From: Ignavibacteriota bacterium
Lineage (GTDB): Bacteria; Bacteroidota; Ignavibacteria; UBA10030; SZUA-254
Direction of reading: 5' to 3'
DNA length: 64,000 nt
Assembly: GCA_025358305.1 (NCBI GenBank)
Contig: JANYJZ010000013.1
Location: 62,001-126,000 of the forward strand
Positions 33,827-40,930 of the stretch are shown here, one piece after another (positions within the stretch are counted from its first letter, which is position 1; every line of letters starts with the position of its first letter). The translations under genes and the position numbers were made by a program. Under the pieces are notes generated by a model, which saw only the letters and a list, made by a program, of their open reading frames with translations, was not told the origin of the DNA and did no database searches.

Positions 33827-33857
33827 TTGATTGGAACTCAATTTTTGCCTATATTTT
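33827..33857 (+). promoter_or_regulatory. Predicted promoter of the menaquinone cluster
   Basis: TTG at 33827-33829, 20 nt, TATATTTT at 33850-33857. It implies that the prenyltransferase starts downstream, at GTG 33890, not at the TTG inside the promoter. Confidence 0.65.
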
Positions 33858-33889
33858 CCCGTCACTTCCGCAAAATCCATGGTCTCTTT

Positions 33890-34723
33890 GTGAAGAAATT
33901 CTTCAGCTTCGTCAAGATCGAGCATACGCTGTTCACCCTTCCGCTCATCTACAGCGGCCTCATCCTCGGACTCCGGGAGACGCCGTCACTCGCGCTCGTC
34001 CTTCTCGTCCTGACCACGGCCGTCGGCGCACGGACCGCCGCCTTCGCGCTCAATAGGATCATCGACCGGCACATCGACGTCCGGAACCCCCGCACGGCGG
34101 TACGGGAACTCCCGAGCGGCCGGATGACCCTCGGACAGGGCCTCGGCGTCCTTGCGGCGGGCTGCGCCGTCTACTTCGGGTCGGCCGCCCTCATCTCGAC
34201 CTTCTGCCTCATGCTCTCCCCGATCCCGCTCCTCATCTTTGTCATCTATCCCTACATGAAGCGCTTCACCGCGTTCGCGCATTTCGGCGTGGGGCTCGGG
34301 ATGTCGATGGCCCCTCTCGGGGGATACTTCGCCGCGTCGCCCTCGTTCGACAACCTTCTCCCCGCGGTCCTCTTGTGCCTCTTCACGATCTTCTGGGGCG
34401 CGGGATTCGACATCATCTATGCGACCCTCGACGAGGACTTCGACCGCCAGGAGCGGCTCTTTTCCTTCGTATCGCGCTTCGGGAGGGGAAAAGCCCTCTT
34501 CTGGTCCTCGGTCTTCCATGTCGTCGCCTTCGGATGCCTCACCGGACTCTTCTTCACGACCGTCCGGACCTGGTACGCGGCGCCGTTCTTGTTCCTCACG
34601 GGCGCCATGCTCTGGTTTGAGCAGCGCAAAGCCTCCAATATCGAGCTCTCGTTCTTCCGGATCAACGCCGGCCTCGGGTTCGTCGTCTTCGCGATGATCG
34701 TGACGGGAGCGGTCTTGAGGTGA
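33890..34723 (+). CDS. mqnP: UbiA-family prenyltransferase (MqnP type)
   Basis: 277 residues from GTG 33890, placed so because a promoter occupies the earlier in-frame start and the UbiA N-terminus begins here (KKFFSFVKIEHTLFTLPL). Eight or nine membrane helices carry the two Asp-rich motifs, NRIIDRHIDVRNPRT (about 50-70) and DIIYATLDEDFDRQ (about 180), which bind Mg-prenyl diphosphate. Next to UbiX, UbiD and the futalosine genes it is best read as the enzyme that prenylates the 6-hydroxynaphthoate intermediate in futalosine-route menaquinone synthesis. The mqnP symbol rests on this context. Its TGA overlaps the next start (GTGA). Confidence 0.85.
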   Translation: MKKFFSFVKIEHTLFTLPLIYSGLILGLRETPSLALVLLVLTTAVGARTAAFALNRIIDRHIDVRNPRTAVRELPSGRMTLGQGLGVLAAGCAVYFGSAALISTFCLMLSPIPLLIFVIYPYMKRFTAFAHFGVGLGMSMAPLGGYFAASPSFDNLLPAVLLCLFTIFWGAGFDIIYATLDEDFDRQERLFSFVSRFGRGKALFWSSVFHVVAFGCLTGLFFTTVRTWYAAPFLFLTGAMLWFEQRKASNIELSFFRINAGLGFVVFAMIVTGAVLR

Positions 34724-35271
34724 GGATCATCCTCGGCATCACCGGATCCTCCGGCGCGATCTACGCCGTCGACTTCCTCAAGAAGTCGACCGCCGACAAC
34801 TTCCTCATCGTGAGCAAGTGGGGGAAGATCCTCCTGAAGGACGAGATGAATATGACGGAAGCGGACCTGCAGCCCTACGTGAAGCGCCAGTTCTCGAACG
34901 GCGACCTCGCGGCGCCCATCGCCTCCGGCTCGAACCGGTTCGACGCGTACATCATCCTCCCCTGCTCCACCTCGACGCTCGGGAAGATCGCCTCCGGGAT
35001 CGGCGACACCCTCATCACCCGCACGGCCCAGGTCGCCTTGAAGGAGCGCTACAAGCTCATCCTCTGCGTCCGCGAGACGCCGCTCTCCACGCTCCACCTC
35101 GAACAGTGCGCGAGGCTCTCGCGCGACGGCGTCATCATCATGCCGGTGAGCCCGCCGCTCTACTATGTCCCGAAGACGGTCGACGAATACGTCGGCGGGT
35201 TCGTCGACAAACTCTTGGGCGTCGCCGGGATCCGCGCGTCCCGCGGCTGGCGCGCGGAAGAGCTGGAGTGA
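34720..35271 (+). CDS. mqnM: UbiX-family flavin prenyltransferase (MqnM type)
   Basis: 183 residues from GTG 34720, overlapping the prenyltransferase stop by 4 bp. The UbiX opening ITGSSGAIYAVDFL, the CSTSTLGKIASGIGD loop and PPLYYVPKTVDEYVGGFVDK are characteristic. UbiX makes prenylated FMN, the cofactor required by the UbiD enzyme encoded next. The symbol is by context. It is cytoplasmic. Confidence 0.9.
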   Translation: MRIILGITGSSGAIYAVDFLKKSTADNFLIVSKWGKILLKDEMNMTEADLQPYVKRQFSNGDLAAPIASGSNRFDAYIILPCSTSTLGKIASGIGDTLITRTAQVALKERYKLILCVRETPLSTLHLEQCARLSRDGVIIMPVSPPLYYVPKTVDEYVGGFVDKLLGVAGIRASRGWRAEELE

Positions 35272-35275
35272 CCCT

Positions 35276-37066
35276 CTGGCCCTGCGCGAATTTCTCAACG
35301 TCCTCGAACGCTCGGGCGAGCTCCACCGCACCGCCGTCCCGATCGACCCCGCACTCGAACTGACCGAGGTCTCCACCCGCGCCCTGCGCGAGGGGAAGCC
35401 CGCCCTCCTCGTCGAACACCCCGGATCGTCGCGCTTTCCCCTCGTCGTGAACCAGTACGCGAGCGCCCGGAGGATCTCCCTCGCCCTCGGCCGCGACCCC
35501 GACGAGATCGGCAGCGAGCTCATCGCGTTCCTCGAACGCGCCATGCCCCCCACGTTCCGCACCTTGCTTGACAATCGGCCGATCCTCGGCCGGTTCCTCA
35601 AGTCACGGCCCCAGACGGTCTCCGCAGCAGCGAGCCAACAGAACGTCCTCGCGCCCGACCTCGACGCGCTCCCGGTCCAGACCTGCTGGCCCGGCGACGG
35701 CGGACGATTCATCACGTACGGCCAGGTCTGTACGTACGACCCGCGCGACGGCAAGCGGAACATCGGCCTCTACCGCATGCACGTCTTCGATCAACGCACG
35801 ACCGGCATGCACTGGCAGATCCAGAAAGGGGGCGGGTTCCATTATTTTCAGGCCGAGAAGCTCAACCGCGACCTCGAGATCGCGGTAGCGATCGGCACGA
35901 GTCCCGCGCTGCTCTTCGCGACGATCGCCGCGCTCCCCGAAGGGATCGACGAGGCGATGTTCGCCGGGTTCCTCGCGAACTCCCGCACGGCGTTCGCCCG
36001 CGGGAAGACCATCACGATCGACGTGCCGGCCGACGCGGAGTTCGTCCTCGAAGGGATCGTTCCCGCCAGAGAGCGGCGGATGGAGGGGCCCTTCGGCGAC
36101 CACTTCGGCCACTACTCGGCGGCCGCGGAGTTTCCCGTCTTCCACGTCAAGGCGATGACGCACCGCCGCAACCCCATTTACCCTGCGATCGTCGTCGGCA
36201 AGCCGCCGATGGAGGACAAGTTCCTCGGCGACGCAACGCAGCAGATCCTCGCACCCCTCGCGAAACTCGTCCACAAGGAGATCACAAGCCTCTGGGCCTA
36301 CTACGAGGCGGGGTTCCACAATCTTCTTGTCGTCGCGATCGAGCAGCGCTACCAGAAAGAAGCGGTGAAGGCCGCCCTTGGGCTCATGGGGACCGACCAG
36401 CTCTCCTTGACGAAGTGCATCGTTACCGTCTCCTCCGGCGTCGACGTCCGCGACTGGCACGCGGTCGTCCGGGAGCTCCGCGCGAACTTCGATCCGCACC
36501 GCGACTTCATCATGATCCCGAAGGTCCCCTTGGATACGCTCGACTTCACGAGCTACAGGATGAACCTCGGGAGCAAGATGATCTTGGACGCGACGCGCAA
36601 ACCGCTTCGCGGCGCTCCCTTGGAGCGCGCCGCGACGGATATCGGCGGCGTCCGTTCGATCGACAGCCGCGTCCTCGACATGGCGATCGTCGACGACGCG
36701 ATCTTGTTGGTGAAGCTCGGCGGCACGCTCGCAGAGGAACCCGGCGGCATGGGCACGACTGCCGGGATGGAGATCGTCCGGAAACTCGTCGCGCGTCCGG
36801 AGCTCTCCGGCCTCACGATGATCGCCTGCGTGTCGGAGGATGTGGATATTCACGACAAAGAGAGTTATATTTGGGGGGTGTTCACGCGCTTCGACTGCGA
36901 ACGCGACGTCGTTTTCACGGAAACGACCCTTCGCGGCATCAGCCCCTCGTACCGGGGCGTCATGGGCGTGGACGCCACCTGGAAACCCGGCTACCCCAAG
37001 CCGCTCGTCATGCCGGAGGAGATCGTTCGCCGCGTCGACGAGAAGTGGGGCGCCATCTGGAAATGA
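35276..37066 (+). CDS. mqnL: UbiD-family prenyl-FMN decarboxylase (MqnL type)
   Basis: About 596 residues. UbiD features are clear: the N-terminal ALREFLNVLERSGELHR, GMHWQIQKGGGFHYF, the prFMN/metal region EGPFGDHFGHYS, and the C-terminal VDATWKPGYPKP. It should decarboxylate the naphthoate ring of the prenylated intermediate. The start is unusual. The family N-terminus begins at about 35276, but no ATG, GTG or TTG exists in frame until ATG 35165, deep inside ubiX. CTG 35276 lies 7 nt after GGAG (35265-35268) and is my best start. The gene follows ubiX by 4 bp. Confidence 0.82.
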   Translation: MALREFLNVLERSGELHRTAVPIDPALELTEVSTRALREGKPALLVEHPGSSRFPLVVNQYASARRISLALGRDPDEIGSELIAFLERAMPPTFRTLLDNRPILGRFLKSRPQTVSAAASQQNVLAPDLDALPVQTCWPGDGGRFITYGQVCTYDPRDGKRNIGLYRMHVFDQRTTGMHWQIQKGGGFHYFQAEKLNRDLEIAVAIGTSPALLFATIAALPEGIDEAMFAGFLANSRTAFARGKTITIDVPADAEFVLEGIVPARERRMEGPFGDHFGHYSAAAEFPVFHVKAMTHRRNPIYPAIVVGKPPMEDKFLGDATQQILAPLAKLVHKEITSLWAYYEAGFHNLLVVAIEQRYQKEAVKAALGLMGTDQLSLTKCIVTVSSGVDVRDWHAVVRELRANFDPHRDFIMIPKVPLDTLDFTSYRMNLGSKMILDATRKPLRGAPLERAATDIGGVRSIDSRVLDMAIVDDAILLVKLGGTLAEEPGGMGTTAGMEIVRKLVARPELSGLTMIACVSEDVDIHDKESYIWGVFTRFDCERDVVFTETTLRGISPSYRGVMGVDATWKPGYPKPLVMPEEIVRRVDEKWGAIWK

Positions 37067-37118: not shown

Positions 37119-38978
37119 ATGATAGAGTTCCGCGACACGCTTCTCACGCCGATCTGGGACAAGGTCCGGCGCGGAGAACGCCTCTCACTCGAGGACGGCA
37201 TCGCGCTCTACGCGACCGGCGACCTCATCGGGCTCGGCAAGATGGCCCACTTCGTCCAGCAGCAGAAGAGCGGGGACGCCGTCTACTACGTCCTCAACCA
37301 GAAGATCGAGCACACGAACATCTGCGTCCTGTCGTGCAAGTTCTGCGACTTCGCCGTCAAGAAGGGCGACGCGGACGCGTACGAGATGACGACCGAGGAC
37401 ATTCTTTCCAAATTGACCCCCGACATCCACGAGGTCCACATCACGGGCGGCATGCCCGCCGACTGGCCGTGGGAGCGCTACCTCGACATCGTGCGCTCCA
37501 TCCACGAGCGCTTCCCTGCGATCGACGTCAAGGCGTTCACCGCCGTCGAGATCGATTTCTTCCACAAGAAGTTCAAGCTCTCCATCGAGGAGGTCCTCCG
37601 GCAGCTCAAGGCGGCGGGCCTCAGGACGATGCCGGGCGGCGGCGCGGAGGTCTTCTCCGAGCGGGTCCGCAAGCTTCTGTTCAATCAGAAGATCGGCGCA
37701 AAGGCATGGTTCGAGGTTCACACGACCGCCCACCGATTGGGCATCCCGACGAACAGCACGATGCTTTACGGCCACATCGAGACGATCGAGGAGCGCCTCA
37801 TTCACATGATGAAGCTCCGCGAGGCCCAGGACGAGACGGGCGGGTTCCTTACGTTCATCCCCTTGGCGTTCCAGCCCGGCGACACCGGCATCAAGCCGCG
37901 CGACCGGTTCACGAGCGCGATCGACGACCTGAAGACGATCGCGGTCTCGCGCCTCATGCTCGACAACTTCCCGCACATCAAGGCGTACTGGGTCATGCTC
38001 ACCGAGGAGGTCGCCTCCGTCGCGCTCCACTTCGGGGCGGACGACATGGACGGCACGGTCGGCGAGGAGCGCATCGCGCACGACGCCGGCGCCGTCAGCC
38101 CGATGAAGCTCGCGAAGGACCAGATCATCAAGATCATCCGCGACGCCGGAAAGATCCCCGTCGAGCGGGACGTCTACTACAACCCCTTGCGGATCTCCGC
38201 GGACAACGTCATCGGCAAGATCCCCTACCTGAATTCCGTGCCGTTCTACCACGCGTTCGAAAAACGGCAGTTCCGGATCCTCCCGGTGGCGCCGCGGCGC
38301 ATGGGACTCCTCCAGGAGAAGGACCAGATCATCGCGGGCCCCTTCTCGCTCATGGACTACTTCCGGCACGAGGAGAGACTCGACCTCCTCGAATGGTGCA
38401 TCGCGACCCGGGACCAGGTGAAGAGCGTCATGCTCTTCTCGAACCACGGATGGGCGGACCTCGACGGGAAGAAGATCGGCATCACCGACGACACCGCGAC
38501 CTCCGTGCGCCTCCTGCAGGTGCTCCTGGAAAAGAAGTACCAGGTGAAGGCGACGTTCGAGCGACTCCACGCCGGGATCAACGACCTCGGCGGGTTCGAC
38601 GCCGTGCTGTTGATCGGCGACGAGGCCCTGCGCCGCAATAAGTTCGGACTCGAGGGATTTGAGATCATCTACGACCTCGCGGAGGAATGGTACGAATGGA
38701 AGAAGATGCCGTTCGTGTTCGCGGTCTGGGCGGCATCGAAGTCGCTCACGAAGGAGACGCAGATGGAGCTCAACGTCGCGATCGAACGATCGCTCGCCGA
38801 TGCGGAAGGATCGTACGGCGCGATCGGAGCCCTCCACGGCCGGCGCATCGGACTGACCCAAGCCGACGTCGAGGCTTATCTCGAAGGGTTCAACTACCGC
38901 CTCGGGGAGCGCGAACGCGACGCGATGAAGGAATTCCGGAAGCTCGTCTTTGAACTTGAAAACGTCTCGATACACTAG
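37119..38978 (+). CDS. mqnE-mqnA: Fused aminofutalosine synthase (MqnE) and chorismate dehydratase (MqnA)
   Basis: 619 residues from ATG 37119, with GAAGGA 8 bp upstream. Residues 1-360 form a radical SAM aminofutalosine synthase: the cluster cysteines C69, C73 and C76 in NICVLSCKFCDF, then HITGGMPADW, the TMPGGGAEVFSERVR motif and GADDMDGTVGEERIAH. Residues 363-619 form a complete MqnA-type domain, beginning IGKIPYLNSVPFYHAFE, with IAAGPFS-like IIAGPFSLMDYF, ITDDTATSVRLLQ and LIGDEALR. MqnA converts chorismate to 3-enolpyruvylbenzoate and MqnE consumes it with SAM, so the fusion joins consecutive steps. No stop or frameshift separates them. The usual form is two separate genes. mqnC follows 7 bp later. 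Confidence 0.92.
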   Translation: MIEFRDTLLTPIWDKVRRGERLSLEDGIALYATGDLIGLGKMAHFVQQQKSGDAVYYVLNQKIEHTNICVLSCKFCDFAVKKGDADAYEMTTEDILSKLTPDIHEVHITGGMPADWPWERYLDIVRSIHERFPAIDVKAFTAVEIDFFHKKFKLSIEEVLRQLKAAGLRTMPGGGAEVFSERVRKLLFNQKIGAKAWFEVHTTAHRLGIPTNSTMLYGHIETIEERLIHMMKLREAQDETGGFLTFIPLAFQPGDTGIKPRDRFTSAIDDLKTIAVSRLMLDNFPHIKAYWVMLTEEVASVALHFGADDMDGTVGEERIAHDAGAVSPMKLAKDQIIKIIRDAGKIPVERDVYYNPLRISADNVIGKIPYLNSVPFYHAFEKRQFRILPVAPRRMGLLQEKDQIIAGPFSLMDYFRHEERLDLLEWCIATRDQVKSVMLFSNHGWADLDGKKIGITDDTATSVRLLQVLLEKKYQVKATFERLHAGINDLGGFDAVLLIGDEALRRNKFGLEGFEIIYDLAEEWYEWKKMPFVFAVWAASKSLTKETQMELNVAIERSLADAEGSYGAIGALHGRRIGLTQADVEAYLEGFNYRLGERERDAMKEFRKLVFELENVSIH

Positions 38979-38985
38979 GGGGAGT

Positions 38986-40080
38986 ATGCAGCTCTCAACG
39001 ATCACCGACAAGGTCCGCAACGCCGAACGCCTCACGCGCGAGGAGGGGCTCTTCCTCCTGACGCACGGCGAGCTCCTTGACCTGGGGGAGTGCGCGAACA
39101 TCGTGCGCTACCGCAAGAACCCCGACCCGAGGATCACGTTCGTCGTCGACACGAACCCCAACTACACGAATATCTGCAACATCGACTGCATCTTCTGTGC
39201 GTTCTACCGGCATTCGGGGGAAGAAGGCGCCTACACCCATACGGTCGACGAGATGATCCGGAAGTTCAAGGAGTCCGCCGCATCGGGCGTCACGACGATC
39301 CTCCTCCAGGGGGGCGTCAACCCGGCCCTTCCCTTCGAGTACTACGTCGAGATGGTCGAGCGGACGGTCAAAGAGGTCCCCGGGGTCACGCCGCACTTCT
39401 GGTCGACCTCCGAGATCATCGGCATGGCCGCGGTCTCCGGTCTGACCGTCCCGAAGGTCCTCCAGCGCTTGTGGGACGCGGGACAGCGCACCATTCCCGG
39501 CGGCGGCGCGGAGATCCTGTCGGACCGCGTGAAAAAGAAGATCAGCCACCTCAAGGGGTCCTCCGCTGATTGGCTCAGCGTCATGCGCGAGGCGCACGCC
39601 ATCGGGTTCACCTCCACGGCGACGATGATGTACGGACACCTCGAGACGAACGACGACATCGTCGAGCACCTCGAATCGATCCGCGCGCTCCAGGACGAGC
39701 ACCACGGGTTCACCGCGTTCGTCCCCTGGAGCTTCAAGCCGGGCAATACGCCCCTCGAGAAGATCATCCCGCACTACGCCACGCCGATGCGGTACCTCCA
39801 GATGATCGCGATCTCGAGGATCTACCTCGACAACTTCGATCACGTCCAGGCGTCGTGGTTCTCCGAAGGGAAGAAGACGGGTCAGATCGCGGTGCATTTC
39901 GGGGCGGATGATTTCGGGGGGACGCTGTTCGAGGAGAACGTGCATGCAGCGGCGAACTTCGTGAACAAGTCGAACACCGAGGAGGTGATCAACCTCATCC
40001 GAGATGCCGGGTTCACCCCGGCGCAGCGTTCGACGACCTACGAGATCTTGAGGATCTGCGAGGAGCCGCAGGCCGCGTAG
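38986..40080 (+). CDS. mqnC: Cyclic dehypoxanthine futalosine synthase
   Basis: 364 residues from ATG 38986 with GGGGGAG (38978-38984) immediately before it. The start is certain because the ribosome-binding site overlaps the stop of the preceding gene. Radical SAM cysteines C64, C68 and C71 lie in TNICNIDCIFCAFYR. IPGGGAEILSDRVKKKISHLK and HFGADDFGGTLFEENVHAAA are MqnC/CofH-family signatures. The enzyme cyclises dehypoxanthine futalosine in menaquinone synthesis. It is related to MqnE but is distinguished by the ACWSA-type motifs and the CNIDCIFC loop. It converges with mqnD, 13 bp apart. Confidence 0.92.
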   Translation: MQLSTITDKVRNAERLTREEGLFLLTHGELLDLGECANIVRYRKNPDPRITFVVDTNPNYTNICNIDCIFCAFYRHSGEEGAYTHTVDEMIRKFKESAASGVTTILLQGGVNPALPFEYYVEMVERTVKEVPGVTPHFWSTSEIIGMAAVSGLTVPKVLQRLWDAGQRTIPGGGAEILSDRVKKKISHLKGSSADWLSVMREAHAIGFTSTATMMYGHLETNDDIVEHLESIRALQDEHHGFTAFVPWSFKPGNTPLEKIIPHYATPMRYLQMIAISRIYLDNFDHVQASWFSEGKKTGQIAVHFGADDFGGTLFEENVHAAANFVNKSNTEEVINLIRDAGFTPAQRSTTYEILRICEEPQAA

Positions 40081-40093
40081 CGGCCCCCATCAA

Positions 40094-40930
40094 CTAGAAG
40101 AGTTCAAGCGGGCCGACCTTCGGGATGAGTCCGCGTTCATGCCCCACCTTGAAGAGGAGCTCTAAGGCCTTCTTCCCGTCCGGTCCCATGTCGATCGTCA
40201 GCTGACTCACGTACATCTTCACGAACTTCTCCCCGAGCGCCCGGTCGATCCCTCTCCCCCATTGCAGCGCGTACGGGATCGCCTCGTCCTGATGGTCGTA
40301 TCCGTAGGCGATGCTCTCCTTGAGGCCGCGCGAAAGTACGCGCGCCGCCTCCTCACCGAGGTCCTTCCGCACGACGTCGAGCCCTAACGGCAGCGGCAGC
40401 CCGTCGGCGGCGTTTTCCCAGAGCTCTCCGAAGTCGAGGACCTTGTGGTAGCCCAAGGATTGATAGGTGATCTGCCCTTCGTGGATGAGAAGTCCCGCAT
40501 CGACGGCGCCGGAGTCGACGGCGTCCATGATCGCGTCGAACGGCATGTCGACGTTCGTGATACCGTCGGTGAAGATCTTGAAGAGCAGCGTCGCGGTCGT
40601 CAACGGCCCCGGGGTCGCGACGGTCTTTCCGCGCAAGTCGTCGAGGGTGCGCCACTTCCGGGAAATGATGACCGGCCCGTACCCTTCCCCCATGCTCGCG
40701 CCGGTGCGCATGATCCAGTATTTGTCGGCAACGTACGGGAACGCGTGCGCGGAGATCGCGGTGACCTCAAGCTCGCCTGTCCGCGCCCGCTCGTTGAGCG
40801 ATTGTATGTCCTCAAGACGGTGTTCGATCGCCATGCCGGGGAGCTTCACTTTGCCGCTCGCCAGGCCGTAAAACATGAACGCGTCGTCAGGATCGGGACT
40901 GTGGCCGACGCGTATCAATCTGTCTGTCAT
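40094..40930 (-). CDS. mqnD: 1,4-dihydroxy-6-naphthoate synthase
   Basis: 278 residues. The opening IRVGHSPDPDDAFMFYGLAS is diagnostic of MqnD, followed by AISAHAFPYVADKYW, VATPGPLTTATLLFKIF and DAGLLIHEGQITYQSLG. The fold is a periplasmic-binding-protein type, related to MqnA, but it acts in the cytoplasm on cyclic dehypoxanthine futalosine. It completes the set MqnA-E-C-D in this locus. It is transcribed toward mqnC with its own promoter candidate at 40955-40985. Confidence 0.94.
   Translation of the reverse strand: MTDRLIRVGHSPDPDDAFMFYGLASGKVKLPGMAIEHRLEDIQSLNERARTGELEVTAISAHAFPYVADKYWIMRTGASMGEGYGPVIISRKWRTLDDLRGKTVATPGPLTTATLLFKIFTDGITNVDMPFDAIMDAVDSGAVDAGLLIHEGQITYQSLGYHKVLDFGELWENAADGLPLPLGLDVVRKDLGEEAARVLSRGLKESIAYGYDHQDEAIPYALQWGRGIDRALGEKFVKMYVSQLTIDMGPDGKKALELLFKVGHERGLIPKVGPLELF

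Follow-up and report, generated by a model that had tools for sequence, protein, structure and literature searches.

The window analysed here, a stretch of 64,000 nucleotides, contains a single open frame (37119-38978, + strand) of 619 amino acids in which an MqnE half is followed by an MqnA half, and, as judged from its sequence, this fusion is with high confidence a bifunctional enzyme that catalyses both opening steps of menaquinone synthesis by the futalosine route, and it probably derives from the joining of adjacent genes. In these steps, MqnA converts chorismate to 3-[(1-carboxyvinyl)oxy]benzoate by dehydration, and MqnE combines the adenosyl radical of SAM with the MqnA product to give aminofutalosine, after a rearrangement and the loss of CO2. 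The fusion itself is real and is conserved across a large set of bacteria, most of them uncultured, namely the Ignavibacteria and their relatives. A first-pass annotation of the same DNA had described an uninterrupted frame of 619 codons with a full MqnE followed, from about residue 363, by a full MqnA-type domain; the frame is indeed open over this length, and both domains are recovered by Pfam and NCBIfam profiles. In particular, Pfam places Radical_SAM at residues 63-227, CofH_C at 242-359 and VitK2_biosynth (PF02621) at 365-611. A Shine-Dalgarno-like word, AAGGA, lies just upstream of the ATG of the frame. Both halves also exceed the cut-offs of the profiles against which that annotation had proposed to check them, as TIGR03700 scores 473.1 on the first half (cut-off 434.55) and PF02621 scores 171.8 bits on the second (cut-off 26).

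The first half (residues 1-358; 37119..38192, + strand) corresponds to a radical SAM aminofutalosine synthase. TIGR03700, the NCBIfam equivalog model of MqnE, matches all of the 50 aligned fusions, while the first half falls below the cut-offs for both MqnC (TIGR03699, 350.5 vs 428.1) and CofH (307 vs 374.1). The cluster motif CX3CX2C is intact, with C69, C73 and C76 at the positions first proposed for them, and these cysteines are invariant in 50/50 fusions. The nearest solved structure, by sequence as well as by fold, is MqnE of P. heparinus (6xi9, 6xig), which is also the only close one by sequence. The assignment of the first half as an MqnE with predicted catalytic activity is thus well supported. 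The likeness to known MqnE includes the full-length family match, the cluster motif and the best sequence and fold match, whereas the fusion differs in that a further complete enzyme follows at the C-terminus.

The second half (residues 363-619; 38205..38975, + strand) corresponds to a chorismate dehydratase domain and is covered by PF02621 from profile position 3 to 251 of 252. When solved structures are searched by sequence, it retrieves the chorismate dehydratases of S. coelicolor (SCO4506, 7ahr) and D. radiodurans (2i6e), and MqnD (2czl) stands far lower than MqnA in the fold ranking. Within PF02621, the C-terminal half is therefore predicted to be MqnA and not MqnD, on the basis of the sequence matches, the fold ranking and the presence of a separate MqnD-type gene in the neighbourhood. 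The catalytic positions of MqnA were taken from the residues mutated in solved S. coelicolor structures, namely Asn18 (numbered by chain position; Asp in 7ywc, Ser in 7an7), Ser87 (Ala in 7an8) and Tyr243 (Phe in 7an9). Their equivalents in the fusion are N372, S436 and Y587, of which the first two are invariant in 50/50 fusions and the third is kept in 49/50; T461, S462 and D501 are likewise invariant across the 50. The C-terminal half thus resembles known MqnA in its near-full domain, its fold and the probed positions, but it is not a stand-alone protein and shares only about 24% identity with MqnA proteins of solved structure. That it is a complete, catalytically equipped MqnA domain is a well-supported prediction.

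A different role for the C-terminal half would require chorismate dehydratase to be supplied from elsewhere. The first-pass annotation had noted that no other mqnA is present in the locus, which holds for the locus but not genome-wide. Indeed, PF02621 has three matches in the genome of the window (G000; 42 contigs, rated 100% complete), namely the MqnD-type gene, the fusion and a stand-alone MqnA-like gene on contig 39 (G000:C39:6797-7363; L003:1300-2076, - strand). A similar third gene is found in most genomes of the family, with relatives in L018 and L020-L030, and it could be argued from this recurrence that the MqnA of the fusion has a regulatory role or has degenerated, while the paralogue provides the dehydratase. 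Such a division of labour is highly improbable, as Asn, Ser, Thr-Ser, Asp and Tyr are kept in essentially all fusion MqnA halves, whereas in all 12 distinct family proteins of the paralogue the catalytic Asn is replaced by Tyr or Phe and Thr-Ser by Ser-Glu or Ala-Glu, and in relatives the paralogue is located away from mqn genes. The paralogue is thus unlikely to be a chorismate dehydratase, judging from these substitutions, and a separate active mqnA elsewhere in the genome was rejected on the same grounds. The first-pass annotation had also named a separate mqnA together with a degenerate C-terminal half as evidence that would speak against it; since the fusion keeps the Asn and the Thr-Ser that the paralogue lacks, this is not what was found. 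In the relatives examined, the neighbours of the paralogue are rplS and a RecF-type gene, with no mqn genes.

The fusion lies in a cluster of menaquinone genes. Upstream on the + strand are an MqnP-like UbiA-family prenyltransferase (33827..34723, start codon approximate), which is matched by TIGR01475 above cut-off (243.7 bits) and by MqnP models below theirs; a UbiX-family flavin prenyltransferase, the partner of UbiD-type decarboxylases (34720..35271; TIGR00421, 166 bits, above cut-off); and a UbiD-family menaquinone biosynthesis decarboxylase of the MqnL type (35288..37066). The last of these scores 495.3 bits with TIGR03701 against a cut-off of 495.9 and is well above cut-off with TIGR00148; the listed frame begins at 35165 and the start is approximate. 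Seven bases downstream of the fusion begins MqnC, the cyclic dehypoxanthinyl futalosine synthase (38986..40080, + strand; TIGR03699, 450.6 bits vs cut-off 428.1), and the MqnD-type gene (40094..40930, - strand; PF02621, 248.6 bits) closes the conserved cluster. The order MqnP-UbiX-UbiD-[MqnE-MqnA]-MqnC, often with MqnD reversed, is conserved in many of the loci that are long enough, and elsewhere among the compared loci only [MqnE-MqnA]-MqnC stays together. PF01048 nucleosidases, possible MqnB, are present in the genome, and nothing there scores above the cut-off for menB of the classical route.

A survey of architectures in Ignavibacteria and Bacteroidota genomes, as first suggested, recovered the same fusion in dozens of separate assemblies. 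Of the 15 genomes of the family, 14 carry it: in 12 the MqnA half is wholly or mostly present, in two the fusion is cut short by a contig end, and the one genome without it is an incomplete assembly. Across a sample of 294 genomes from the class, matches occur in 91, and these comprise, by row count, about 67 fused frames, 20 stand-alone proteins and four fragments or frameshifts. The stand-alone proteins of the class are restricted to two families (f12 and f20), and in the rest of the phylum, outside the class, the matches are stand-alone. At E 1e-10, the MqnA half finds no counterpart in eleven genomes of the same order (among them G067, G076, G102 and G127), several of which are rated 100% complete. 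Beyond Bacteroidota, the fusion was sampled through the best 80 loci of named genomes, which are mainly Ignavibacteria, Bacteroidota and Kapaibacterium MAGs. It is found in 77 of these, 73 by frame length, three cut by contig ends and one (L156) with a frameshift; in one of the 73 (L160), a frameshift breaks the MqnA half. The remaining three loci, from Elusimicrobia (L164), Dehalococcoidia (L165) and Rokubacteria (L167), have mqnE directly followed by a separate mqnA.

The first-pass annotation had considered that an assembly error might have deleted a stop codon between two genes. This reading is vanishingly improbable and was ruled out, because the uninterrupted fusion recurs in dozens of independently assembled genomes, with a constant linker length. 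The statement that the two enzymes are normally separate applies to bacteria at large, but in Ignavibacteria and their relatives the fused form is the rule. Two genomes labelled as Syntrophaceae (L134) and Deltaproteobacteria (L140) carry fusions that pair as sisters within the Ignavibacteria part of the tree, which may reflect transfer, binning error or mislabelling. In L080 and L160, apparently one contig, an 898-residue frame comprises MqnE, a partial MqnA and MqnC, with the remainder of MqnA in a different frame; this looks like a frameshift, either real or from sequencing.

As for the origin of the fusion, the unfused forms in f12, f20 and three other phyla have mqnA directly after mqnE, and this adjacency in unfused relatives would explain the fusion by the joining of neighbouring genes, which is probably how it was made. 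In such a path, the stop codon and spacer between adjacent mqnE and mqnA would have been lost to give one frame, and the simplest history would have this happen a single time, close to the root of the Ignavibacteria-Kapaibacteria lineage. The MqnA tree places the fusions on one strongly supported branch (99/98) together with three stand-alone proteins, from Elusimicrobia, Dehalococcoidia and Rokubacteria MAGs, a further difference from known MqnA. These three MqnAs, encoded by separate adjacent genes, thus group with the fusion type and not with the stand-alone type of Bacteroidota. The branching order inside the fusion branch, including its base, is without resolution in the MqnA tree; the best tree requires two state changes, and the data do not reject a single fusion clade (p-AU 0.38). 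The simplest reading would be a single origin, whether or not splitting or transfer followed. The second MqnA tree omits L129_sep and L114_sep (long branches that looked spurious), the truncated fusion L133, duplicates and distant Bacteroidota rows, and the exclusion of these rows was decided after the first tree had been seen.

Fusions of enzymes for neighbouring steps are common, and a precedent is offered by the bifunctional CofGH/FbiC of coenzyme F420 synthesis, in which enzymes of consecutive steps are fused and one belongs to the CofH/MqnE radical SAM group. Both halves of FbiC are radical SAM enzymes, whereas the MqnE-MqnA fusion pairs a radical SAM enzyme with a dehydratase of periplasmic-binding-protein-like fold. 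NCBIfam has a model, NF006687, for bifunctional CofGH/FbiC, and no curated family for the MqnE-MqnA fusion was found there. No description of this fusion was found in the openly licensed literature, although such proteins may already carry a multifunctional label in automatic annotation such as that of UniProt. Thus, the fusion is apparently undescribed, while its component enzymes and their chemistry are already known. It may serve as a mark of Ignavibacteria and Kapaibacteria as a clade, and it matters for annotation since genomes of the clade can appear to be without mqnA under whole-protein search rules.

Within the protein, the C-terminal MqnA domain would dehydrate chorismate to 3-[(1-carboxyvinyl)oxy]benzoate, and the N-terminal MqnE domain would add the SAM-derived adenosyl radical to this product to yield aminofutalosine. 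The presence of both activities in one protein is very likely, given the features of the two halves. The idea that the MqnA half is also translated on its own, starting within the frame, was rejected, as start signals are scarce among the 73 fusions: an in-frame ATG near the junction occurs in only eight, and any start codon near the junction with an upstream Shine-Dalgarno-like word in only five. The linker, of about 4-5 residues near residues 358-362 (38193..38204, + strand) according to the alignment of fusions and AlphaFold, measures five residues from the last MqnE to the first MqnA position in 65 of the 73, eight in seven and 20 in one. AlphaFold, run on the 50-row fusion alignment, gives a mean pLDDT of 87.3 and a pTM of 0.87, with confidence high through the junction and above 90 in the blocks around it. 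A fold search with the model retrieves MqnE (6xi9, 6xig) for one part and MqnA (7an7, 7ahr) for the other, with TM-scores of about 0.8 by target length. The short fixed linker and the confident whole-chain model point to a constrained arrangement of the domains.

How far the two sites cooperate is a distinct question within the bifunctional reading. The first-pass annotation had joined two claims, of which the union of two complete enzymes for consecutive steps stands, on the combined account of profiles, residues, fold, operon and conservation, while channelling is possible only. Its premise of an unstable intermediate is not established, as 3-[(1-carboxyvinyl)oxy]benzoate has been synthesised and supplied to MqnE as a free substrate. 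It is fairly probable that the fusion comprises two independent enzymes on one chain, with their ratio and co-regulation fixed and the intermediate diffusing freely: the intermediate is not known to require protection, separate proteins serve many relatives well, and unfused relatives have the two genes adjacent in the same order, so that the fusion can be neutral read-through. A hint of constrained geometry, against this independence, comes from the near-constancy of the linker across deep divergence and from the confident whole-chain model. The same features, namely a short linker nearly invariant at five residues and a pTM of 0.87 over the whole chain, together with the placement of consecutive steps on a single chain, would favour channelling, in which the MqnA site hands 3-[(1-carboxyvinyl)oxy]benzoate on to the site of MqnE, with the linker fixing both active sites for direct transfer of the enol ether; this is a tentative and rather unlikely proposal. 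More generally, a fixed geometry might aid coupling either by equal supply or by local transfer of the intermediate. Direct transfer, if true, would represent a channelled step in the futalosine pathway, and the fusion makes such channelling directly testable, as it allows a radical SAM enzyme to be studied together with the supplier of its substrate on one natural chain.
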